A DNA stretch of 34,800 nucleotides, taken from Cochliopodium minus (taxonomy: Eukaryota; Discosea; Himatismenida; Cochliopodiidae). Location of the stretch: NCBI GenBank assembly GCA_024220525.1, contig JAMYWO010000369.1, positions 1 through 34,800 of the forward strand. The letters are read 5' to 3'. Below are positions 15,055-30,064 of this stretch, one piece after another (position 1 is the stretch's first letter; each line of letters starts with the position of its first letter). The position numbers and the translations under genes are program-made. Under the pieces are notes generated by a model that saw only the letters and a program-made list of their open reading frames with translations, was not told the DNA's origin and did no database searches.

Positions 15055-18000
15055 ATGGATTTGAATAATTTGGATGGTTTCAATCAAATTAACAATGTAA
15101 AAGGTTGTCTTAAAAAGATCCTTGTTGAAGGAACCTCAGAAGAAAAGCCAACAAAAGGATCAAAAGTAAAAGGTAAGATTCAAAAAAAAGATTTGGACTG
15201 CAAAAAAAATTATTCTTATAATATTCTTTGAATATTCTTCTTTTTAAAAAATATTTTGAAATTGATATTTATAAATACGTAATATCATCAATAATTTACA
15301 GAATCTCAAATTTTGTCTTTAAATATCTTTATAAAACTAACAAAAACTTATTGCAATCGATATATTATAGTACATTATACTGGATGGTTGCTCGATGGAA
15401 CTGAATTCGATAGCTCCAAAAAAAGAAACACACCATTTGAATTCACATTGGGAAATGGACAAGTGATCAAAGGGTATAATCAAAAAAAATAAACCAACAT
15501 CTAACTTTAATGCATTTATAAATGCATGATAACAAAATATAAGATCATCATACGACACATCTTATCAATATACTTGATAATTTAATAACTGCTTTGATTT
15601 ATCAACTCATTTATTTTGTAGATGGGATTTGGGTGTTGCTTCAATGAAGAGAGGAGAAACCGCAAGATTGCATTTGGCACCAGAGTTTGCTTATGGAGAG
15701 AATGGATCGCTTCCCACCATCCCCAGAAGCGCCACCTTGGTATTTGAGGTCGAATTGTTGGATTGGGTTGAACCACCACCAGATAAATCAAATATGACAT
15801 CTAAACAATTGATTGAATTATCATTAAAAGAAAAGGGTATAATAAAAGAAGATAATTCCATACTTTTTAAATCTTTAATTTATACCTCATACAATTATAT
15901 TAATGGCTTAATTCTATCGTATAATCTTTATTCATCATTTATGTATCTAATTTAAAAGTTTCCAAAAATTTTTTTAAAATTTGTTTTCATTTTTTTGCAA
16001 ATATTTTTTTTTTCTTTTTTTTTTTTCAAACATTAAAATACAAAAACCAAAATAAGAAATTTTCATTTTGCTTTTAATTTCAAATTAAAAAATATTTAAT
16101 TTTTTAAAAAATAAAAGAATTGGGAAATGAACAATTCAAAAAGTCAAACTTCGAAAAAGCATTGCAACACTACAACGAATCAGCAGACTGCTACGACTTC
16201 ATCGAGGACGAAAACGACAAGAACGAAGCCAAAGTTACCTACATCGCTTCCCTCTCCAACGCCTGTGCTTGCTACCTCTCCTTGAAGAAGTGGGACAAGG
16301 TCATCTCCAAGTGCGGTGAAGTTTTGCAAGTTGACAAGAGAAATGCTAAGGGTTATTTCAGAAGGGCTTCTGCTCATTTTGAACTCCAAGAATTTTACAA
16401 GGTACTTTTTACTTAAAATTTAATTTTTTTTTTGTTTAAATTTAGAATTATTTATAATTATTCGTCAAGAAAATTATTTTTTTTTATTTTTTTTTTAATT
16501 TTCTTCAGATTTTTTTTTTACATCAACTTTTATATTCTATGATTAATCTTATTTCTTTCTCTATATTTCTTTTTAATTAAATTATTTTAATTATTCCTTT
16601 TTTATTAATTAATTTACTCAATTTTTTTTTTTTTATGTTTTTCTTATTTAATTTTTTTTTTCCCAATTAACAAAGGCAAAGCAAGACATTCTCCAAGCTA
16701 CCAAACTTGCACCTAACGACAAACAAGTGAGAAGTATGCACGAACAAATCTTAAAGAGTATCGAAAATGAAAAAAACAAAGAAAAGAAATTATTTGCAGG
16801 TGTATTTGATAAGGGTAAATCTTTCTTTTGGTTATTGTTTATTATTAATTTTTATTAATAAAAATTATTCATTCCTAATTATTTTATTTATTTCTTAATT
16901 TCATTTTTTATTTTAAAGTTTATTTTACATTTTTAATTTTATTTTATTTTATTTTTTGTTTTTTAGTTTTATTTTACATTTTTTAGTTATATTTTCATTT
17001 TTTATTTCAATTTTATATTTTCAATTTTTATTTTTAATTTTTTTTTTTAATTTTCTGTTTTATATTTTTAATTTAAAAAACTATTTCTTATTTATTATTT
17101 TTTTTTAATAATTATTTTTTATTTTTTAAATTTTTTTAATTGTTAATATTTTTAATTTTTTATCTTTTATTTTTTGTTTTATTTTTAATTTTATATTTTT
17201 TTTAATTTTCTGTTTTACATTTTTAATTTTATTTTTTTAATTTTATTTTTTCGAAATTATCGAAGGTAAAGGATCAATCTACAAAGAAGTAAACGCGCCA
17301 GTGTTCCACACAGGGCCAAACCCCAAAGTATTCTTCGACATCCAAATGGGAGAAGAGAAAGCAGGCCGCATCGTCTTTGAATTGTTCGCCGACAGAGTTC
17401 CCAAAACCGCCGAGAACTTCAGAGCTTTGTGTACTGGAGAGAAGGGTACTGGTAAGAGAGCTAAGCTTCACTTCAAAGATGTCATTTTCCATCGTGTCAT
17501 CAAAAACTTTATGATTCAATCTGGAGATATTGATCATAAAGGTACCTTTTCAAAACAAAAATTAATTTTTATTTATTATTTTTTAAAAATTTTTAATTTT
17601 ATATTTATTTTTTTTCAAATCATTTTTTTATATTTTAATTTCGTTTATTTTAATTATTTTAATTTATTTTTTTTTATTTTTTTTTTTCATTTTTTTTAAA
17701 TTAATTTTTATTTCGTTCAAATCACATTCAAAACAAAAATTAATTTTTCTTAATTTTTATATTTTTTTTTTTTTCTTTTCAATATTTTAATTTAATTGAT
17801 TTTAAATTTATTTCATATTTTCACTTTTAAACATTTGTTCCATTTTTATTTTTTTAATATTAATTATTCTTTATTTTTAAATTTCGTTCAAAAAAAAAAT
17901 TTAATTCTCAAAAATTCTTTTTTTTTTTTTTTGTTTATTTTTAAAATTTTTTTTTTTAGATGGTTATGGAGGAGAAAGTATTTATGGAGAAAAGTTTAAT

Positions 18001-18386
18001 GACGAAAACTTTGAGTACAAACACGACAGGGAAGGTCTCCTCTCAATGGCCAACTCTGGAAAAAACACTAACGGATCCCAATTTTTCGTCACTTGCAAAG
18101 CCACTCCTCATCTCGACGGAAAACACGTTGTATTTGGTAAAAAAAAATTATTTATTTTTAATTTTTTAATTTAATTTTTTTAATTTAATTTTTTAATTTT
18201 TAATTTAATTTGTTGTTTTATTTTGTTTTTTTTTTTTCAGGAAAGGTTATTGAAGGTTTGGACCTTGTCAAAAAGATTGAGAACACAGAGACTGGAGAAA
18301 ATGATAAGCCTGTCAATACTGTCAGAATCATTGATTGTGGAGAAATTAAAGAGGAAAGTTCTGGAATAGAAGAAGTAAAGAACTGA
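15055..18386 (+). CDS. Dual-family immunophilin: FKBP-TPR-cyclophilin fusion (FCBP)
   Basis: Eight exons give 485 residues in frame: 15055-15172, 15371-15473, 15622-15836, 16118-16401, 16676-16814, 17266-17541, 17960-18136 and 18241-18386 (TGA). Two peptidyl-prolyl isomerase folds are joined by a TPR domain. The FKBP part (about 20-130) keeps the ligand pocket: 'HYTGW', 'EFDSS', 'VIKGWDLG' and 'FAYGENGS'. The TPR part (about 145-275) has all five carboxylate-clamp positions that bind Hsp90/Hsp70 tails: 'KELGN', the Asn of 'SNACACYL', and Lys/Arg of 'KGYFRRA'. The cyclophilin part (about 300-475) has 'FHRVI', 'FMIQSGD', '[15 protein letters not shown]' and 'LDGKHVVFG'. The position of CypA Trp121 is His ('TPHLDGKH'), as in Cyp40, which predicts weak cyclosporin A binding. 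Likely a cytosolic Hsp90 co-chaperone. Intron phases match at every junction, so two separate genes are unlikely. Confidence 0.93.
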
Positions 18387-18611: not shown

Positions 18612-18803
18612 TCAGTTGAAATTGAATTGATTTGGGTAGGGAGAGAGAATAGCAGAATGATCATCCTCAGGGAATCCTTGCAAGATGTACTGCTTTTGAA
18701 TAGGAGATTCATAATCCTTTTGATGGCTTCTGGCAATCCCAAATGAATCTTGGGGAAAAGGATTGAAAGTTATCAGCATAGCATAAGATGAACCATTCCT
18801 TCT
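18612..18803 (-). CDS. Orphan terminal exon, 63 codons
   Basis: A clean coding-like exon begins after an acceptor (aaaattag) at 18804 and ends at TGA 18612-18614. It reads 'RRNGSSYAMLITFNPFPQ' and later 'YILQGFPEDDHSAILSPY', with a balanced composition unlike the surrounding A/T sequence. An ATG directly followed by gttaat lies at 19031-19029. Joining it would give a 64-residue protein with the same ATG-then-intron layout as nearby genes, but the 225-nt intron is only a guess. The exon could also be the remnant of a longer gene or start at its internal ATG. No family recognised. Confidence 0.4.
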   Translation of the reverse strand, partial: RRNGSSYAMLITFNPFPQDSFGIARSHQKDYESPIQKQYILQGFPEDDHSAILSPYPNQFNFN

Positions 18804-18814
18804 CTAATTTTGAA

Positions 18815-20188
18815 AGTAAAGAATAAAAGATTAATATCTAATTTTAATAGATGTAAAATAAATATTTTTAACAAATAATAAAATTTTTAAAAATATATTT
18901 AGTATTGAAGTACTATATATTCTTTTCTTGAAGCTATATATTAATTTTTTTAATTATTTTTATTATTTTTTAATATGTCTTTGGAATATTAATATTTTTT
19001 TTCAAAAAAAGTAAATTGATTTATTAACCATTTTATTAAAGAAAAATATTGGAAAGATAGCTAGTGATTTCTTTTTTTTGATTTGTATTCTTGAATTGAT
19101 CTTCTTTTCATTGTATTCTGTAATACTATAAATAAATAAAAAAATTTTAACTGAAAAATAAAAAAATTATGCAAAATATTTTACATACTCTTTATCTTCT
19201 TTTTTTCTTCTTTCAACAAATTTTAATTTTTTTATTGTTCTTCAATTCCTCCTTTCATTGAATCAAGTCCAATAGTAAAATAATGTTTCAGTATTTCTAT
19301 TATTTTTCTAATTAGGATCATTATTTTTTCAACTTGGTAAAAACTTTTTTGATTTTTCTTGATTGATAATTTAATTCAATTATTCCAACAACTTTAAATC
19401 CCATTCATTTTTGTTTATTTCAGTATTTTGGTTTCAATCTTTCATTTTTTTTTTTTTATTCTTAGTTATTTTTTATTTTTTATTGTGCCAAAAATTTGAA
19501 AAGACAATTTAAAAATTTTTTTTTTTTGGATTTTGAAGAGCTTTTAAATAATTTTACAATTTAAAAAAAATTACATCTGTCAATTCACAAAAAAAAAAAA
19601 ATGATTTCTCTTACAGTATGTGAAACATTTTATATTGTGCTCCATTAAACAAAAGGATTAAATATTTTTGGTAAAATGGAGAAATAGTCAATTCTTTTGA
19701 TTATTTTTTTCATTACGGATTACAGCGTAAACAAAGTATTGTTGAACTCAAAAGTTTGATGGAAAGATTAATGATGAAAGCAATTCTATTTTTGACATTA
19801 TTTTTGAATAGAAATAAATCACAAGGAAATAAATTCTATTTTTGACATTGAAAAGAAAAGGAGAATGTAAATGATGATTAAAAACATGAATAAACTTGAC
19901 CTGAATAGACTTGGATATAATCAAAGGTAAAAATTGAAACATAGAATAAAATAATATTTTTAATCCTAATTATCATTTTTAAATATATTTTTAAATATAA
20001 CAAATATGCATCTTTTAGAAAGATATACCTAAAAATCCAGAAAAAAGGATAGAACTTGAAGTATATTTCTTTATTTGCTAAATTTATGAAAATGAAATTA
20101 AATTTATAAATATATATTAAGACAAAAGATTATTGAGAAAACATAAAAAAAAATAAAAAAAATAAAAATCAAAATCTGAAAAAAAAGT
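18815..20188. other. Mostly non-coding A/T-rich interval
   Basis: No clear gene. Segment 18970-19290 resembles 21831-22190 in the same orientation. A short plus-strand frame of about 58 codons ends near 19840 and reads 'YGLQRKQSIVELKSLMERL', which could be a relic exon. An 18-bp direct repeat (attctatttttgacatt) occurs near 19783 and 19833. Confidence 0.4.
18970..19290. repeat. Diverged dispersed repeat, copy 1
   Basis: The blocks 'aatatgtctttg', 'ggaaagatag', 'tttgtattcttg' and 'gttcttcaatt...aagtccaatag' recur in the same order and orientation at 21831-22190, with insertions and substitutions between them. Both copies lie in the flanks of family-A genes. Judged by eye; the boundaries are approximate. 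Confidence 0.45.
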
Positions 20189-21248
20189 ATGGTATGAAAA
20201 TACAAGTTAAATAAAATATACAATTATATTTAACAAATAATTAAATACCTTTTATTTGGTCTTCAAATACACCCAAAGTAATATAATTTTTCTAATTCTT
20301 TTTTTAAAAAATACTTAGGGGAACCAACTTACAAAACAATTAAACGAACTCGATACTTGCGATATAATAGGACATATTAAATTGATTGAAAGGAATAGAG
20401 AGGGGAGTCGAAAAAGAGGGAGAAATCATACAAAGTTGAATCTGTGGAAAGATATTCGCCTAAAATATGAAAACAATCCAGAGTATGTGAAATCCTGCTT
20501 ATATTTCATTAAACACAAAACCATAGGATTCACATTCCACATTTTAGTTATCCACTGCACTTTTTTGCTTGAACTCATGAAAGTACATAACAATAAGCAC
20601 AAAATAGCAATAAAGAAAGATAAAGGGATGTTCTCCCATGCAAATCATTATTTCACAGACAAAAAGGACCTAAAAACCTACTTAAAGGGCGAGATAGGCG
20701 ACGAGGGAATAGATAAACAGCTATCCGAATTGAAAAAACGAAATGATCATCTCAAGTCCAAGGTCTTCTACTTGAAGGTGGAGGAGGTGGTCCAAAACCC
20801 TTTGGATCATTTGAGCCAAGAAAAGATGGAGTCAACTGATTCTAATCCCATATCTCTGAAAAGACCATCCAACTCTGGGTCCATTACCAACAACACAAAC
20901 AACACCAATGAAAATGCTAATGTCGATAATTTATTGAATCAGAATTCAGGCGATGAAGAACCCAATCCCAAGAAAAAAAAAAACAAATCTTCCAGCCCAG
21001 AAAAAGGATATCTCCCTCCTTCTCCTAACTCTGCAGATACTGAACTCCATGAATGTAATCTTGAATCAAACGATAATGGACAAGATCATGAAAGTGAAAT
21101 AGAGAATTTCTTTGATAAAGTCGAATGGATTCCTCTCTATTTCAGTGATCGTGGCTCTTTCTTTGGAGACATAGAAGACTTCATTTTCAACGAAAATGGA
21201 AAGAGGAAGAGAAGTGAAGAAATTTCTTCAAAAGAGTTTTCATTGTAA
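20189..21248 (+). CDS. Orphan family protein A, 310 aa
   Basis: Exon 1 contributes only the ATG (20189-20191), followed by donor gtatga. Exon 2 runs 20319-21248 (TAA). The start MGNQLTKQL has Gly2 and Thr6, matching the N-myristoylation consensus. The shared family domain covers about residues 35-150: 'LWKDIRLKYENNPEYVKSC', 'MFSHANHYF', 'LSELKKR' and 'KVFYLK'. A polar tail rich in Asn, Ser and Pro follows, including a KKKKNK patch that could be a nuclear signal, and it ends acidic then basic. Relatives at 23447-23989 and 28542-29313 share the domain and the ATG-intron layout. The 3' part is copied in inverted orientation at 21427-21815. I do not recognise the domain. Confidence 0.72.
20727..21115 (+). 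repeat. Inverted repeat, left arm (389 bp)
   Basis: This segment of gene A matches the reverse complement of 21427-21815 with no length change and one difference seen (the Cys codon TGT against TAT). The arms are separated by 311 bases. The left arm is entirely coding. Confidence 0.93.
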
Positions 21249-21426
21249 TTAAAAATTGTTGAATTGTATTTTTTAATTATTATCACAATTAATATATTCA
21301 AATTCTTTTCGTTTTGCCCTCATTTCTGATCAAATCAACTCTTTAAGTAAAAAAATAAGAATATATACAAAATAAATTTTAATTGGAAATCAAATTAAGT
21401 TCCAAAATGAATCCAATTTGAAAGAT

Positions 21427-21815
21427 TCAAAGAAATTCTCTATTTCACTTTCATGATCTTGTCCATTATCGTTTGATTCAAGATTATATTCATGGAGTTC
21501 AGTATCTGCAGAGTTAGGAGAAGGAGGGAGATATCCTTTTTCTGGGCTGGAAGATTTGTTTTTTTTTTTCTTGGGATTGGGTTCTTCATCGCCTGAATTC
21601 TGATTCAATAAATTATCGACATTAGCATTTTCATTGGTGTTGTTTGTGTTGTTGGTAATGGACCCAGAGTTGGATGGTCTTTTCAGAGATATGGGATTAG
21701 AATCAGTTGACTCCATCTTTTCTTGGCTCAAATGATCCAAAGGGTTTTGGACCACCTCCTCCACCTTCAAGTAGAAGACCTTGGACTTGAGATGATCATT
21801 TCGTTTTTTCAATTC
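21427..21815 (-). pseudogene. Truncated inverted copy of family gene A
   Basis: On the minus strand this copies the second half of gene A, from the 'ELKKRND' segment to 'SEIENFF', with a single amino-acid change (Cys to Tyr). It lacks the start codon, the ATG-intron and most of the family domain, and after the homology ends it reads a few unrelated codons to a stop. An ATG just upstream on the minus strand is in a different context and meets a stop at once. It is therefore a partial duplication and probably not a gene. Near-identity means it is very recent, kept alike by gene conversion, or an assembly fold-back. Confidence 0.8.
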
Positions 21816-23446
21816 AACACTTCATTTTTTAATTTGTCTTTGTATTAATAATATTTTTTAAAAAAAGGAAATTGATATATAGTTATTTATAGCAAATTTT
21901 TAAGTTTTATAGATTCTTTTCTGATGTATCAAAAAATTAAATTAGAGAAGAAATTCGAATTGGGTTTGTAAAATATGATGTTTTCAATTTACCCTTTGTT
22001 ATAATATCTTTTCAAGATTTTTTGAAAAATTTTTATATCACTCACTATGTTATTCTGGAAAGATAGGTATTTTTTATTCGATGTTTGTATTCTTGTTTTG
22101 ATTATTCTTCTTTTTTCCTTCTTTTCCATCTCCTCAATTTTTTATAGTTCTTCATTTTCTCCTTTTCAAAGTCCAGTAGAAAATAATAATTGGTCAAAAT
22201 CTTTCGCGCATCTATTATTAATTTAAAGAATTTTATAATCATAATAACTTTATAATACTTTTTATTTTCGATTAATCGTGAATAAATTGTTCAAGAACAA
22301 TTAATATTCTTTGATTTCATTATGTTTTCATATTAATAGTTATAAATTTGTTATTTTATTGTTTATTTCCATCTTGACTTATAAATATTAATCAATTTAT
22401 GATACCACTATATTTTTGGGTTTTAGTTTCTTTAAATTTGAATAATTTGTTTATATTTCTTCCTTTTTTTGGTTTGCATTTTTTTTTATTTTATTCATTC
22501 ATGTCCTTTCTATTTTTTCTCAATCAAAAACAGAAAAAATAATTTCTTTACTTTCTCATTCCATTCAATTGTTCAAATTATCAGATCCTTCTTTTCAGAA
22601 TCTTGGAAATTCATTTTTGGTGAAATTAATTTGAAACCAAAAGTGTTACTATTGTTGATAAAAACTAACAAATTACTCTATCTTTGAAGATTACTGAATA
22701 TTGATTCAGTGAAATTTTTAAAACTATTGAAGGAACATAGTGATAAAAAACAAAAATGGAAAGACATGAAAAAAAAATAAAAAAAAACACAAAGTAAAAA
22801 AAATTTCTAAATATTTTGGAAATATAGGTAGATAAAAAGTAATGGTTATAAATATGATAAACTTATTACTTTCATTTTTAATTTAAATCTTTTTTTAAAT
22901 ATTTTTACCTTCATTTTCATTTAGATTAAAATTTTAAGGGAAACAAATTTGATATGCTTTAAATTTAATCGACCTTAAAGATAAAAAGACTATTTAAAGA
23001 CTGTAATTATTTTTTCACCAAAAATTTTCAAAATTGATTTTTTTTTTTTCAAATTTTAAAGGATGAACGGCAAGAAAAGAAAAATAGAATAGACAGGATC
23101 CAATATAAGATAATACTCCCAAAGATTTCTTTCAAATTGATTTAGATGGTAATATCTATATTTAAAAAGAGAACAAAACATACAATTCAATTTAATGCCA
23201 CTTGTGAATCATTCACACTTAATTATTACTCTGAAATTAAATTAAATAAAAAAATAATACTTTTAAATTCAAAAATAAAAGTTCAAATAGATAGATAAAA
23301 GGATACTTAAAAGGAATCGACCTTTTATTTACCATTTTTGCCCATAATAAAAATATGAACTCAAATAAATAAATATATATTAATAAATTTTCAAATATAA
23401 AGACAAAAAAATAAAAAAAAAAAGCTTCAAAAAAAACTTATTCTAA
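21816..23446. other. Non-coding A/T-rich interval
   Basis: About 1.6 kb without a supportable gene. It begins with the second copy of a diverged repeat (21831-22190). The plus-strand open frame near 22469-22687 is rich in Phe, Lys and Ile and looks like background. A short ATG frame at about 23063 (MNGKKRKIE) ends at once. Confidence 0.4.
21831..22190. repeat. Diverged dispersed repeat, copy 2
   Basis: Counterpart of 18970-19290, same orientation, with an insertion of roughly 150 bases after the first block. Judged by eye. Confidence 0.45.
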
Positions 23447-23989
23447 ATGGTAACAGATTCTCCTTGGAATGTTTTTATATAAATTATAAATTTTTGAATA
23501 AAAACATTTTGCTCTTTTACTAATTAACAAATAACAATTAATTTTTATTAGGAAAATCAACTCTTTATATGCAATAATACATTTGAAACTCTGGAGATGA
23601 TCTTTGGAAAGATGAACATGATCAGGAGAAGAAGAAGGAATGCAAGAAGTTTGAATTTTTGGAGTATTATCTTTGCTCTCTACCATATCTTGCCTCATTA
23701 TGTTGAATACCATGTAAAATTTATGAGATTTGGAAACTACCAGATTTGCATCATAAGAAATTCCCTCATTCTTGAAATCATGAATTTCCACTACAATCTT
23801 AACAACAGGAAAATACCATCTGATTCCCTCATGTTGATCCATGCAATCTATGCAATCCGTTCTAAATTGTTTCAAATATACAAAAAGGGTGATTTCGGGA
23901 ATCAATTTGTTAATCATGTTCTTTCACAATTGAAGAATTTAGGATGCAAGATTTTTTTCTTTAAGATCAACGAGAACCAAGACAATTGA
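23447..23989 (+). CDS. Orphan family protein C, 146 aa (short form)
   Basis: Exon 1 is only the ATG at 23447-23449, followed by donor gtaaca. Exon 2 is 23552-23989 (TGA), after the acceptor tttttattag. The N-terminus MENQLF resembles MGNQLT of the gene at 20189, supporting the shared split start. An Arg-rich patch 'RRRRRNAR' precedes the family domain ('LNFWSIIFALYH', 'VKFMRFGNY', 'LSQLKNLGCKIFFF'). It lacks the Asn/Ser/Pro tail of the other members and stops right after the domain, and it is more diverged, with Phe/Ile-rich replacements. It may be a short living member or one starting to decay. Function unknown. Confidence 0.62.
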
Positions 23990-24017
23990 TCCCATCTATC
24001 TTGAATTGGGTTTATTT

Positions 24018-24018
24018 N
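24018..24018. other. Ambiguous base (N)
   Basis: The only undetermined base in the window sits in a long A-rich tract between gene C and the exons at 24187. The local sequence may be unreliable in homopolymer length. Confidence 0.99.
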
Positions 24019-24186
24019 AAAAAATAGAATAAAAATAAAAAAAAAAATAAACAAAATAATAATAAAAAAAAAATTACAATTACAATTAAATTCAAAAAAA
24101 AACATAAAATAAAATAAAAATAAAAAAAATAAATGAAATAAAAAATAAAATAAAAAAAAAAAATTGAACAAAATTTTTTCGCAGAG

Positions 24187-24827
24187 GAATGGAAATATGA
24201 GGCTCAAAGTGGTTTGTTGAGTAACACCTTTCAATCTTTGGAGCAGAAAAAAATTTTTAAATTTGATGGTTCTTATTTAAAACCTCTTTCTCAAAACGAT
24301 GGAATAGGTAAAATAAAAAAACAAAAAATTTAAAAATAAAATATTAATAAAAAATAAAAATAAAAAAAATAAAAAAATAAAAATTATGAAAATTATAAAA
24401 AATATTAAAAGTTATAAAAAAATGAAAAATAAACAAAAAAAAATTAAAAATAAAAATATTTCTCGTTAAAAAAAACAAAAAAGATAAGAAATTTAAAATT
24501 AAATTATTAAAATTAAAAAAAATAAAAAAAATATTCATGTTTTTTTTTTTTTTTTGAAAAGGATATGGTCGTTGGGATGGTTTTACAATTTGTTGGTACA
24601 GCGATAGTAACAAAGTGATAGAAGAATACACTTTCTATCCTCCCGAAAACGAATTCATGTGCCTCAACGAAGAACTCTCTTGGGTGTGGTACCCCGAAAA
24701 GAACGCACTGCAAGCCAAATTTGGCGGCAATGGTTGGATAGTAGAAGGAAACATTCCTTTTTGTATTGTTATGTTTTTACAGTTGATTCGTTATGCTAGT
24801 TTGACTGTCGATCTTGATGATCTTTGA
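24187..24827 (+). CDS. Protein of unknown function, 3' two exons (5' end unresolved)
   Basis: Two exons are well supported: about 24187-24309, then a 252-nt A-rich intron, then 24562-24827 (TGA). The first reads 'EEWKYEAQSGLLSNTFQSLE' and ends phase 1 (gata|g, donor gtaaaa). The second continues 'GYGRWDGFTICWYSD' and is rich in Trp, Tyr and Gly, ending with a hydrophobic segment 'FCIVMFLQLIRYASLTV'. The acceptor of the first exon is either at 24184 or 24186. No start codon could be placed: upstream is an A-rich tract with one N, then gene C. A frame overlapping the end of gene C could be spliced in phase but looks like a shadow. No family recognised. Confidence 0.5.
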
Positions 24828-25518
24828 TCTTTTCTTTTTTTGGCAGTACTGTGGGTTGAATTTATTTTTTTGTGGGTTGAAAAAAAGAAAAAAGAAGAAA
24901 GAACTTGTTGATCTTTTTTTGAAGAAGAAGAAAATTTTCTCTTTTTTTTTTTTTTCTTTTGTTCAAAAAATCTATTTTAAAAAAAAGTATAAATTAAAAT
25001 TTTATTTTTTTTTCATGTAAAACAATCTTTCGCTTTTTCTTTTATTTTAATCATGAATTCTTTGTTTTCCATTTTTTCTCTTTTTGAAAGAAAGCTTTGA
25101 ATATGAGATCCTTTGTTATTAATTTTTTTGAATAAAGTTTCTATTGAAGGATGTTTCAAATAGACACCAACAGTTATGCCTTTAAATCTAAAAGAGATAA
25201 AATGGAAAAAATAACAAATTTGACAATTATTACTATTGAAAATGGATTGATTTAAAGCAAACATTTTTTGAATATATAATTATATTATAATCATTAAAAA
25301 ATGGAAAATAGAATTTTTGGTCATTAATTATTCATTCTTGAGGAACTTTATTCTTTAAGCAAACTCCGTTGTCACATCTTTTCATTTAATTTAAAATTAT
25401 AAGAGGTCGAAACAACTGAAAAAGAGAAATTGAAAATGGAAATTATTTTTTCAAATTTTTAAGATTATTTGAAAATATAAAAAAATAAATAAAAAAAAAA
25501 AACTAAAACGATAAAGAA
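24828..25518. other. Intergenic interval
   Basis: A/T-rich sequence. A minus-strand frame of about 83 codons at 25264-25013 starts MFALNQSIF and contains 'GVYLKHPSIETLFKKI'. It may be a small gene or a relic, but splice sites and homology do not support it further. The last 130 bases should hold the promoter of the histidine-rich gene. Confidence 0.3.
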
Positions 25519-26649
25519 ATGGAAAACAACAAAAACAATACAAACATTACACCAGAAGGAAGTGAGAAGAATGAAGAATTAAAACATTCAGATTGCAAAT
25601 ATGAAAGAAAATTGAGAAAATGGAAGAAATTAGGTAAGTATTTTGGAGGCAAACATCATCATGAAGATCATTTAGATCATCCTAAAGGATCTCATTTTGG
25701 AGGACATCATAGTAGAAAACATCATGAAAGTGAAAAAAAGAACAGAGGAGATTCTGAGGAATGCAAATACGAAAGAAAATGGAGAAAATGCAAGAAATAT
25801 GGAGCACTCAAAGGATATGGAAACCATCATGTTTTTGGGGGACACCACGGACCTCATCACGGAGAACACCATGGAGAACATCATCATGAATTTCATGGAG
25901 GACATCACCATGGATTTGGAAAGCACCATGGATTTGAAAAACCTTACCATGGAGAACATCATCATGGATCTCATCCCGAAGGATTCCATTTCGAACAACA
26001 TGGTCATGGATTTGGAGTAAATAATGGATGTGAAAGAAGAGGAGATCATAATGAAGGATCTCACTTTGGAGGACATCACAGATTCGGAGGACATCACCAT
26101 GGATTTGGAAAGCACCTTGGAGATCATCACCATGGAAAGTATCGACATTTTGGTCATGGATTTGGAGGAAAGCATCATCGTTTCCACCATGGTCACCAAT
26201 TTGAAGGAGATCGTGTAGAAAGAAGAGAAAAACGCAGATTGAAACACCAAAGATTTCATAGTCGTCTTCAAAACATCCATAATGAAAGCAAAATTAACAT
26301 CTTTAGATTCCAATCTAAATTGCAAAAACTGTTGAAAAGAACTAACGACAGATTAAATTTCAAGGAAGAGAGCTTTCAAAGAAAGAAAGAAAAACTCCAA
26401 AAGAGAATAAATGAATTCCAAAACAAATTAAAAGAGATCGAAAACAAGATTAAAGATGAGAAGTTGACTTTGACAGATGAAGAAAAGACTGAACTCACAA
26501 ACTGCCAAAGTTCTCGTGGTAGTTGTGGAGTCCGTCGTGGTGAGAAGGGTAGCTACAATAATGTAGAATCCGTTGAAAAAACTCTCAAAAATCTAAATCT
26601 TGGAAAGGCAGGCGATGAACAAAAGACTTTGATTGTTAAGCTCAACTAA
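25519..26649 (+). CDS. Histidine/glycine-rich protein with coiled-coil tail, 376 aa
   Basis: Single-exon frame from ATG 25519 to TAA 26647-26649. Residues about 48-230 are dominated by His-His pairs in repeats such as 'GHHHGFGKHHGFEKP', with Gly, Phe and Glu. Two copies of a Cys-containing basic motif ('CKYERKLRKWKK' near 27 and 'CKYERKWRKCKK' near 89) flank the first His block. Residues about 235-325 are a charged helix likely to form a coiled coil ('FQSKLQKLLKR', 'KKEKLQKRINEFQNKLKEIE'). Such His density usually binds Zn, Ni or Cu or drives pH-dependent assembly; that is inference. No signal peptide or membrane segment. No family recognised. The repeat-rich coding DNA gives long meaningless frames on the other strand. 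Confidence 0.85.
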   Translation: MENNKNNTNITPEGSEKNEELKHSDCKYERKLRKWKKLGKYFGGKHHHEDHLDHPKGSHFGGHHSRKHHESEKKNRGDSEECKYERKWRKCKKYGALKGYGNHHVFGGHHGPHHGEHHGEHHHEFHGGHHHGFGKHHGFEKPYHGEHHHGSHPEGFHFEQHGHGFGVNNGCERRGDHNEGSHFGGHHRFGGHHHGFGKHLGDHHHGKYRHFGHGFGGKHHRFHHGHQFEGDRVERREKRRLKHQRFHSRLQNIHNESKINIFRFQSKLQKLLKRTNDRLNFKEESFQRKKEKLQKRINEFQNKLKEIENKIKDEKLTLTDEEKTELTNCQSSRGSCGVRRGEKGSYNNVESVEKTLKNLNLGKAGDEQKTLIVKLN

Positions 26650-27032
26650 ATCCAAAATCAATTTTTTTGAAATTGAAAAATTTAAATAAAGAAAATTTGT
26701 TGAATTTAATCAGGAATTTGTTTCAACTTGTATCCCTTATTTTTAATCATTGAATTTTGAAAATATAAAATTCTGTTAAGATTGAATATTTATCACTATA
26801 ATATTTATATTATCACTATTTCTTCACATCTGAAAAATGTGGATTGTTAAAATATAGTTATACATCTTATATATTTAAATTTCATTAGGGAAAATATTTT
26901 CTTATTTTATTTTTTATTTTTAAACTTAGCTAAGTTTATATTGTTCTACTTCTTGATACATTCGAATGTACTCTTCTATTTGTTTTGTTTGTTTAAATTT
27001 TATGTAAACAAAATAAAAAATTTTTTAAAAAA
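26650..27032. other. Intergenic interval, promoter side of next gene
   Basis: About 380 bases of A/T-rich sequence between two plus-strand genes. No gene or repeat seen. The promoter of the gene at 27033 must lie here. Confidence 0.4.
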
Positions 27033-28133
27033 ATGGGAAATACACAAAGCAAAAGAATCCAACGGGTTGGATTCAATGATTCCAATAAACAAATCAAATA
27101 TAAACAACCCAAAAATGACGAAGATAAAGATGAATTGGATGAAGAATCAACAAAAGCAAATGAAATGTCTATGCAAATGGAACAAGAAAAAAATAACAAT
27201 TTCACTGTGAATGATGAAGAAGAATCTGCTCAACTTTCTCTGGAACTCCATAAAGAAGTAAATAATAAGAAAAAAGAATTTAATAAGGCTCTTAAAGGTG
27301 GTTCTGATTTGTTTGGCAATTTTCCTGGTTTTACCACTGATGATGAACAAATCCAAAATGTTGATAATAATCAAAACAAAAAACAAGATATCGAGGAGAA
27401 TAATCAATCTGAAAAAGAAATCCAATCCAACTTAGATATTCAATTACAAGAAAAACTTTTGATATTCGAACAAAAAATCAACAATTATATGAATAAATTA
27501 GAACAAATCGATAGAATCAACAATGACAAATTGGAGAAAATAATTTCAATTCTCAATAATAGTCAAAAACCAAAAGAGAAAAAAGGGAGATGGAGTTGGT
27601 TCTCAAAATGGAGTATGAATTATAAAAAAATAGCATATTTTTTTAATTTTCTATCTTCTATCTATCTAATTGTTTTACTCATCAATGATCTCAAAAAAAT
27701 CTATAATAACATTGAAAATGCATGGAAATCTATATTTTATATATTAAGTTCGTTGGTCACGGTCTTTGTTGCTATTATAACATCATGTCTTAAGAATAAT
27801 AGTTCGATGCCAACTCGATACGACCTCAATCCACTAAAAACTGCGGGTGGTATGACTCGTAATCATATGGATGAAATCGGATACCTAAAACATAATGGTT
27901 TAAATCGAAATGATTTCAGTGATATTGATTTAAATCGAAATGATTTCAGTGATATTGGTTTAAATCGAAATGATTTCAATCATATTGGTTTAAATCGAAA
28001 TCATATCAATCATTTCGATTCCCTAAAATATCTAAATCTTGATTCCCTTCTGAATGTTCCAAAACCTGTCATAGGAGAAAATGATAAAATGAAGATTCAA
28101 AAGAGTGATACAATTCAAACAAATGATTTATAA
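27033..28133 (+). CDS. Predicted myristoylated two-TM protein with C-terminal 10-aa repeats
   Basis: Intronless frame of 366 residues (TAA at 28131-28133). The start MGNTQSKR fits N-myristoylation: Gly2, Ser6 and a basic residue next. A long acidic/Asn/Gln region follows, then a short coiled coil near 145-175 ('LLIFEQKINNYMNKLEQI'). Two hydrophobic segments follow, near 205-225 ('FFNFLSSIYLIVLL') and 237-258 ('IFYILSSLVTVFVAIITS'). The tail carries four 10-residue repeats of the form GLNRNDFSDI encoded by 30-bp units at 27897-28016. A lipid anchor plus a hairpin of two membrane segments suggests a membrane-bound scaffold facing the cytosol. No family recognised. Confidence 0.85.
   Translation: MGNTQSKRIQRVGFNDSNKQIKYKQPKNDEDKDELDEESTKANEMSMQMEQEKNNNFTVNDEEESAQLSLELHKEVNNKKKEFNKALKGGSDLFGNFPGFTTDDEQIQNVDNNQNKKQDIEENNQSEKEIQSNLDIQLQEKLLIFEQKINNYMNKLEQIDRINNDKLEKIISILNNSQKPKEKKGRWSWFSKWSMNYKKIAYFFNFLSSIYLIVLLINDLKKIYNNIENAWKSIFYILSSLVTVFVAIITSCLKNNSSMPTRYDLNPLKTAGGMTRNHMDEIGYLKHNGLNRNDFSDIDLNRNDFSDIGLNRNDFNHIGLNRNHINHFDSLKYLNLDSLLNVPKPVIGENDKMKIQKSDTIQTNDL
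27897..28016 (+). repeat. Four 30-bp in-frame tandem repeats
   Basis: Units read GLNRNDFSDI, DLNRNDFSDI, GLNRNDFNHI and GLNRNHINHF, becoming more diverged toward the 3' end. A degenerate earlier unit (TRNHMDEI) lies just upstream. The DNA similarity of the first two units shows recent slippage or unequal exchange. Confidence 0.9.
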
Positions 28134-28541
28134 TCTTGAAGAAATATAATCTCAATAAAAAAATTTTTTTAATACACTGTATGTAAATATCAATTGTATA
28201 TTTGAAGTTATATCTCCAATATAGAGATGAATGATTTTTTTTATTTATAAGATTAAAAATAATTTTTATGACTCATAAAATTTATACCCACCATTCATGT
28301 GTTGATCATCAATTATATAGCAATCACAATAATTTTAGCAAAATTTATGTTAAGATTAAAAATTTATTATTTGCTTTCAAAATTCAAAGATAAAAAAGGT
28401 AGATACATACATGTGAAGGAGTCTATGTCAAAAAAAAAATAGGACAAATAATGGACAAAATTATTTTAATAGGAAAGGAAAAAATTAGGGAAAGGTTTTT
28501 GGGATTACAGGAAGGATGAAAAAAAAAAATGATGGACAAAG
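28134..28541. other. Intergenic interval with direct-repeat copy 1
   Basis: A/T-rich region between the 3' ends of two convergent genes. Bases about 28168-28330 resemble about 29467-29615. Confidence 0.5.
28168..28330. repeat. Direct repeat flanking gene D, copy 1
   Basis: Shares 'tgtaaatatc', 'atagagatgaa', 'actcataaaattta', 'cattcatgt' and 'caatcacaat'-type blocks in the same order as 29467-29615. The two copies bracket the orphan-family gene at 28542-29313. Confidence 0.6.
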
Positions 28542-29313
28542 TTAATTGAGATCCATTTCTTTGGGCTTACCGTAAAAAAAGTTAAAGTTAAAATTGATGG
28601 GATAATCCCATTCAATGGGCTTAATCTCAATATTGGGAGGGGACTCTTCCTTAACTTCGGAAGGGGACTCTTCCTTAACTTTGGAAGGGGACTGTATGAC
28701 ATCATGATTAAGTCTCGGAATGGTATCTAAATTGGAAATGAAAGGTTTGAGGTGTAACCACAGAGAAATAGAATTGACCTTGATTTCGGGATCTTGCATA
28801 CCCTTTCCAAATGGGGAAATGTGTATGTCATCATCGAAATAGAAGATCTTGCATCCTTGTTTCTTGAGTTGGGAAAGTAAAAAATCTGCCTTCTCGTTCC
28901 CCAAAGCATCTTTTATGTAGTTTTGGATTAGTTTCCCGGCTGCCCTGAGAGAATGATTGGCATGAGCGAACATCACCGATGCATTCTTAATTCGTTTTTT
29001 GTTTCTCTCGTAATGTTCGTAAATCACTTCCAGTATAAAGTGGCCCTTTAGAATGCAAATGCGTATGTGGTTGTATTTCAAAAAAGTTAAGCAAGTTTCC
29101 ACATAATTGTTGTTTTTGCGAAGCTTTATTAGCATATCCCTCCACATATACAGCCTTTTGCGACCTATCTTCTCTTGGATCATCTGAATGATATTCAATA
29201 GATCAGATTCTATCGTTTTTTCAGAAGGAATCAATTCATTTTTATTAATTGTATCCTAAATTTGAAAAAAAATAAATTTGCCCAAAGTAAATATTCTTAA
29301 ATTTTTTTACCAT
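28542..29313 (-). CDS. Orphan family protein D, 238 aa
   Basis: Exon 1 is only ATG (29313-29311) followed by gtaaaa. Exon 2 is 29255-28542 (TAA), after the acceptor aaatttag. The family domain spans residues about 32-150: 'LYMWRDMLIKLRKNNNYVETC', 'ILEVIYEHYERNKKR', 'VMFAHANHSL' and 'LLSQLKKQGCKIFYF'. It matches genes at 20189 and 23447 in order and spacing. The tail has a 27-bp tandem repeat encoding 'SPSKVKEE/SPSEVKEE' and ends Phe/Asn-rich. It has no Gly2, so unlike the 20189 gene it is not a myristoylation candidate. Direct repeats flank the gene on both sides, hinting that it moved or was duplicated as a unit. Function unknown. Confidence 0.75.
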
Positions 29314-29742
29314 TTTTCTTTTTGAAAAAATATATATTTGATTAATTGTAAATCTTTCATATTAATAAGAAGACAGCAAAATTTTTGAATTGATTATCCA
29401 AATATAACAGTTATATTAAAAATTTTATATCCTACAAAGTTATTATTTTTGTACATAATAAAGTGAATCATTATACATTGTTTGTAAATATCCATTATAT
29501 TAGAAGATATCCTCTATAGAGATGAAATGCTTAACTCATAAAATTTAAGAATGGATAATACCGAACAATACTCTATCATTCATGTCGAAATAATCACAAT
29601 GATTTTAATCATTATACTTGAAATGATCTGATTTAGATATAGACTCAAAAATTTGAATAAGAAATTTCGAATAATTCGCCTCTTTATTGGTTTATATTAA
29701 TTTCAAATGAAAAATTATATTGAATTTTTTCAAAATTTTCTT
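29314..29742. other. Intergenic interval with direct-repeat copy 2
   Basis: Upstream of gene D and downstream of the Lys/Glu-rich gene. It holds the second direct-repeat copy (29467-29615) and otherwise A/T-rich sequence. Confidence 0.45.
29467..29615. repeat. Direct repeat flanking gene D, copy 2
   Basis: Same orientation as 28168-28330, moderately diverged with small indels. Judged by eye. Confidence 0.6.
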
Positions 29743-30064
29743 TTATTTATGTTCTTTCTTTTCCTTTTTTTCCTTTTTTTCCTTGTGCTCTTTTTTCTCC
29801 TTTCCCTCCTTCTTTTCTTTTTTCTCTTTATGTTCTTTCTTCTCTTTTTTGTCTCTTTTCTCTATATGTTCTTTTTGTTCTTTGAGTTCTTCTTTACGTT
29901 CTTTGTGTTCATCTTTTTGTTCAGATTTGGGTGCATGATTATCCCCTTTATTTTCGTTTTTTTGTTCAGTGAAATGTCTTGGTTGTGAGTCATCTTAAAT
30001 TGAAAAATATAAATTTTGCATTATTTTCGAATTAATTCGAATGATTGAAATTGATTTTACCCAT
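29743..30064 (-). CDS. Lysine/glutamate-rich small protein, 84 aa
   Basis: Exon 1 holds ATG plus one base (30064-30061) with donor gtaaaa. Exon 2 is 29993-29743 (TAA) after acceptor tttaag, and the G|AT junction makes Asp. The protein starts MDDSQPRHFTEQK and turns into a highly charged run of 'KEHKEKKEKK' units that would form a single alpha-helix or coiled coil. There is no hydrophobic segment. The opposite strand shows long Phe/Ser-rich frames that are only the complement of AAG/GAA codons. Composition is low-complexity, so homology cannot be judged. Start placement is supported by the exact phase match. Confidence 0.6.

Follow-up and report, generated by a model that had tools for sequence, protein, structure and literature searches.

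A predicted start-codon intron in an orphan gene family of Cochliopodium minus, with a position probably inherited through gene duplication

We report a predicted start-codon intron, lying in phase 0 between codons 1 and 2, in three genes (A, B and C) of a small orphan family encoded on a stretch of Cochliopodium minus DNA. We consider it likely that the family carries one ancestral intron at this place, spread by duplication, and that its position was inherited by the present members. This reading is carried by the splice-site layout, by the paralogy of the members and by the upstream sequence shared between A and D and between B and B′, all of them demonstrated in genomic sequence. The window, meaning the whole stretch analyzed (contig JAMYWO010000369.1, 34,800 nucleotides (nt)), is contig C364 of an AT-rich genome of 44.65 megabases in 598 contigs, and the searches cover this genome. 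The family comprises at least six full-length loci (A, B and C in the window, B′ on contig C219, D on C89 and F on C280) and one fragment, A′.

Predicted start-codon introns in genes A, B and C

In each of the three window genes the first coding exon is the ATG alone. The ATG abuts a GT donor, the AT-rich intron ends in TTAG and a single long exon 2 follows. The introns read from the sequence measure exactly 127, 102 and 55 nt, and a sequence-only reading of the window had given both the lengths and the coordinates of these elements correctly:

20189..20191, plus strand: gene A, first coding exon (ATG alone), read from the sequence; the same ATG-GTAT context and a similar leader occur in D on C89
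20192..20318, plus strand: gene A, start-codon intron, 127 nt, phase 0 (GTATGA...TTAG); unspliced, it reads M V stop
20319..21248, plus strand: gene A, exon 2 and last exon, 309 codons, orphan family
23447..23449, plus strand: gene B, first coding exon (ATG alone), read from the sequence; kept in the 95% identical B′ on C219
23450..23551, plus strand: gene B, start-codon intron, 102 nt, phase 0 (GTAACA...TTAG); unspliced, it reads stop
23552..23989, plus strand: gene B, exon 2, 145 codons
29311..29313, minus strand: gene C, first coding exon (ATG alone), read from the sequence; called by the gene finder in one of two runs
29256..29310, minus strand: gene C, start-codon intron, 55 nt, phase 0 (GTAAAA...TTAG); unspliced, it gives a frame shift and a stop
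28542..29255, minus strand: gene C, exon 2 and last exon, 237 codons

Splicing is predicted to join the ATG to GGGAACCAA in gene A, to GAAAATCAA in gene B and to GATACAATT in gene C. Exon 2 is open over its 309, 145 and 237 codons; its own frame scores 138, 36 and 96 bits as coding, and the other frames score below zero. Within the first 120 nt of exon 2 the in-frame scores are 12 bits in A, 1 in B, 9 in C, 23 in D and 8 in F, again with the other frames negative; the training data of the scoring model include the window, while D and F lie outside them. The first in-frame Met of exon 2 comes at codon 88 in A; in D it is codon 42, in F codon 37, in C codon 26 and in B codon 17.

Under the favoured explanation, exon 1 would consist of the 5′ leader plus the ATG, exon 2 would hold the remaining reading frame, and removal of a spliceosomal intron would join them. 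Since an unspliced transcript soon meets a stop after the ATG in A, B, B′, C and D, protein output would depend on splicing.

Intron position and upstream sequence across the family

A protein search with A finds C, D, B′ and the fragment A′, and a search with C finds F plus the other members; protein searches of the genome with F and with B return no additional members. The member count is a lower bound, as only the best candidates were scored. The full-length members are divergent paralogues, with identities to C of 27-34%. A and D are 47% identical over residues 1-157, in an alignment that starts at codon 2, and have diverged by 0.43 nonsynonymous (dN) and 0.64 synonymous (dS) substitutions per site over 87 codons. 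B and B′, 94.8% identical over 1,495 nt covering 0.9 kilobases (kb) of upstream sequence, the intron and exon 2, are a recent duplicate in which the 0.9 kb of upstream sequence was included. The fragment lies beside gene A, where 20727-21115 and 21427-21815 form a 389-base-pair (bp) inverted repeat of 100% identity, a recent inverted partial copy of gene A:

21390..21821, minus strand: A′, inverted gene A fragment without the 5′ end; 389 bp identical at 21427-21815

Pfam lists no family above its cut-off for A-D or F, all matches falling below it, and lists no ETS family model at an expectation value (E) of up to 1 (A-D) or up to 0.1 (C, F). The predicted fold of the family weakly resembles winged-helix DNA-binding domains, with the ETS type as a tentative lead for the protein.

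An AG immediately precedes codon 2 in all six full-length members, on four contigs. Five of them have an ATG abutting the GT donor in genomic sequence, which gives a start-codon intron of phase 0 between codons 1 and 2, the sole intron that can be read in these genes. At the matching place F has GTGGTAAAA, which reads GTG, with the acceptor before codon 2 and the GT donor both kept. N-Q or N-E follows soon after codon 2 in all six members, if a longer N-terminus is allowed in C. About 9% of comparison sites (23 of 258 control acceptors and 86 of 946 intergenic AGs) have the motif ATGGTA at 40-240 nt upstream; at this background its presence in one gene means little, and its joint presence in A, B, C and D is unlikely to be due to chance.

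Upstream regions and introns were compared with controls from the same genome (82 upstream regions and 246 introns, using the first 300 nt of control introns) and with 30 shuffles, upstream pairs being reported only at z above 3. Five of 21 upstream pairs exceed this value: A-D (10.9), A-B (4.2), B-D (3.6), the candidate start at 19031 with A′ (10.1) and C-A′ (5.2), the last two being discussed with the adjacent genes. The A-D alignment runs up to the ATG and its score is reached by none of the 82 controls from either side; the A-B score is reached by 0 and 1 of them, and that of B-D by 3 and 9. The upstream region of C shows no likeness to any other, its scores being reached by 26 or more of 82 controls, and among family members the intron bodies resemble one another no more than the 246 control introns do. 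With both its upstream region and its intron unlike the others, it is position alone that speaks for descent of the intron in C.

The position of the intron after the ATG is best read, on these comparisons, as inherited from one ancestor within the family. Gene duplications would have copied upstream sequence together with the intron position, and the intron bodies would have diverged. The proposal that sharing by family members reflects common descent, made from the window alone, is thus borne out by the acceptor in six of six members, by the ATG-GT junction in five of six and by the upstream sequence that A and D share up to the ATG.

Alternative explanations and the adjacent genes

Several observations weigh against this reading. 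The introns of the family retain no residual similarity, and the upstream region of C is unlike the others. D and A have weak donors (13th and 28th percentiles of 267), the coding score of B is low over the first 120 nt (1 bit), and F carries GTG in place of ATG. The gene finder called the ATG-only exon in one of the three window genes (C) in a first run and in none of the three in the false-start-control run; it preferred for gene A a 12-nt first exon readable from 20194, and started B inside exon 2. This finder is a hidden Markov model trained on the window plus 20 stretches of 10 kb (bases 20001-30000 of large contigs), in total 234,800 bases, of which 60,956 are N. It returned 99 complete genes, 73 with introns; first exons of 3 nt were predicted in four genes (C and three others, one of 28 amino acids (aa) and one with an in-frame stop), of 4 nt in three and of 5 nt in one.

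The control with false starts covered 14 of 21 loci (161,626 bases), the seven with over 6,000 N being left out. With ATG, one of 52 intron-containing predicted genes of at least 100 aa has a 3-nt first exon, versus 0-3 of 48-58 with 15 false triplets. This small sample shows no genome-wide excess of ATG-only exons, the true rate being beyond what the finder can measure. None of the three ribosomal protein genes whose start could be read (RPL15, RPS8 on contig C329 and RPS23) has a start-codon intron; RPL37A and a second RPS8-like place, on C7, lie outside this count.

Independent gains of introns at a proto-splice site, an ATG followed by G, would account for introns that are unlike in sequence and for a C that shares no upstream region with the others; codon 2 begins with G in all six members, fitting insertion between ATG and G, and for Rps4 repeated gain is not excludable on the published account (PMC6679479). 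We regard such gains as quite unlikely here, however, given that the acceptor position is the same in six of six members with no intronless member found, that A and D have a common leader across the same junction, and that the genome sample holds no excess of ATG-only exons.

The sequence-only reading had gone further and suggested that a cassette of promoter, 5′ untranslated region, ATG and first intron was copied before unrelated reading frames, enlisting two non-homologous neighbours:

30061..30064, minus strand: Lys/Glu-rich gene, proposed first exon ATGG, indistinguishable from chance
29743..29993, minus strand: Lys/Glu-rich open reading frame (ORF), proposed exon 2, purine-rich; own frame 39.0 bits, others -2.8 and -100.7
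18612..18803, minus strand: unsupported exon, 63 codons, without a relative in the genome; proposed ATG at 19031 with a weak donor

The Lys/Glu-rich layout is readable, with ATGG followed by GTAAAA at 30064 and a 67-nt intron, and the first 120 nt of its ORF score 21.1 bits in its own frame versus 9.9 in the next. Its first exon of ATG plus one base nevertheless stands at chance level, as false start triplets likewise yield first exons of 4-5 nt, in 0 to 4 among 48-58 predicted genes with introns. The exon at 18612-18803 has a coding-like score (23.9 bits), and the suggestion that it follows the same plan fares poorly: the donor of the 19031 candidate, GTTAAT, is at the 18th percentile of 267, and the exon has no relative in the genome. 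Membership of either element in the start-codon-intron pattern of the family is not shown.

Beyond the ATGG-GTAAAA junction itself, a cassette would find some favour in the 3′ ends of the C and Lys/Glu-rich introns, the best of 15 intron pairs (score 17.6, z 5.0; 5 and 1 of 246 control introns score as high), ahead of D with the 19031 candidate (reached by 6 and 15 of 246). As short, AT-rich matches, the best of 15, both pairs are taken as unproven. The upstream regions of C and of the Lys/Glu-rich gene stay within controls against the family: for the Lys/Glu-rich gene the score is reached by 6 and 9 of 82 controls with A, and by 14 and 13 with D. Its score with the 19031 candidate, a pair set apart as an exception, is reached by 14 and 2. 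The C-A′ upstream match was dropped, being a 33-nt purine-rich stretch inside the Lys/Glu-rich exon. What comes nearest here to one leader before two different frames is the match of 19284-18965 (minus strand) with 22187-21824 beside A′, aligned in three ordered blocks with the latter segment running up to A′. The first segment partly covers the leader and intron proposed for the 19031 candidate, but the ATG of that candidate falls between blocks and has no counterpart; an inverted piece of A placed in a duplicated segment explains the match more simply.

A DNA search with 20000-23000 returned 62 places, and in the 19 AT-rich matches to the A leader or intron that were aligned ATGGT is kept in none (14 cover the site, four fall short and one reaches its first base). 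The Lys/Glu-rich leader has A-rich matches on C153 (two), C35 and C136, and these likewise do not keep ATGGGT. The DNA searches exclude the last 450 nt before the B ATG and the B intron, and for a match on C343 to 29454-29526 the comparison was confined to the Lys/Glu-rich leader. Among upstream pairs, A-D stands clear of all controls and A-B nearly so. Between non-homologous genes neither upstream regions nor introns show a likeness exceeding that of controls, apart from two matches that are weak or odd, and reuse of a cassette is very unlikely.

The GTG of F also raises the slim chance that the family may not need a local ATG, translation starting at GUG or at an AUG supplied by a distant exon or a trans-spliced leader, which would make the start codon swappable. 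The F locus (C280, L048 536-660) offers a possible other start in an ATGATG at 287, in frame with exon 2 and followed after 33 nt by a GT donor.

Frames starting inside exon 2, with the ATG-GT merely coincidental, would be in keeping with the control acceptors that have ATGGTA upstream and with the Met at codon 17 of B, where the gene finder began that gene. Yet no Met precedes codon 88 in A or codon 42 in D, and still the two align from codon 2, which makes such starts unlikely at least for these genes; together with the recurrence of ATGGTA in A, B, C and D, this renders the explanation highly improbable.

Spliced leaders that supply an AUG are known in flatworms. A counterpart here, delivering a leader that ends in AUG to the exon 2 acceptors, would suit F, which keeps the acceptor before codon 2 without an ATG at the donor, but is scarcely credible with a local ATG-GT in five of six members, an ATG within the exon in three ribosomal protein genes, and AG only mildly commoner before the predicted starts of 61 genes (0.064 in the last 15 nt versus 0.027-0.048 further up).

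Elsewhere in the window, a predicted gene of eight exons at 15055-18386 (plus strand) encodes an FKBP-TPR-cyclophilin fusion (Pfam FKBP_C, TPR_1 in two stretches and Pro_isomerase). FCBP dual-family immunophilins, which a 2018 report describes as restricted to single-celled eukaryotes (PMC6316441), have this layout. A His/Gly-rich repeat protein with no Pfam family above the cut-off is encoded at 25519-26649. Positions 29591-29677 hold a dispersed-repeat core without an Rfam match; of 40 scored candidates, 39 are further places, with 84-89% identity. Eleven copies align over roughly 180 bp or more, and the window copy matches the core only.

Relation to known start codon introns

Start codon introns were named and counted by Nielsen and Wernersson in 2006 (PMC1626468), in a report that also proposes the 5′ untranslated region as a module exchangeable between genes through exon shuffling. 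The family described here shares with those introns the phase 0 position between codons 1 and 2. The 2006 sets, as that report describes them, are homology-reduced collections from animals, fungi and plants, conserved and rich in ribosomal proteins, whereas we deal with one fast-evolving orphan family. Their trend towards conserved proteins, which is not a requirement, does not extend to this family, with no Pfam family above the cut-off; their other trend is towards short, lysine-rich proteins (PMC1626468).

The count for Yarrowia lipolytica is 42 introns, including those after the A, the T or the G of the start codon. They are reported to be well spliced, and introns right after the ATG raised reporter expression (PMC13309789), whereas those of C. 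minus are predicted from sequence. By analogy with the Yarrowia measurements, an intron at the start codon may raise expression here as well. Rps4 of Spironucleus vortens (PMC6679479) likewise has an intron directly after the ATG in a protist, with the difference that it belongs to a widely distributed ribosomal protein gene and not to an orphan family. A literature search found no paper that brings together start codons, first introns, de novo genes and exon shuffling. What is new is an orphan, fast-evolving family carrying a start-codon intron; the kind of placement is known and the mechanism is not new.

These results lend no support to a new way of switching on new genes. They present a case in which a fast-evolving family appears to have kept a start-codon intron as it expanded, in a genome whose sampled loci show no excess of such introns.
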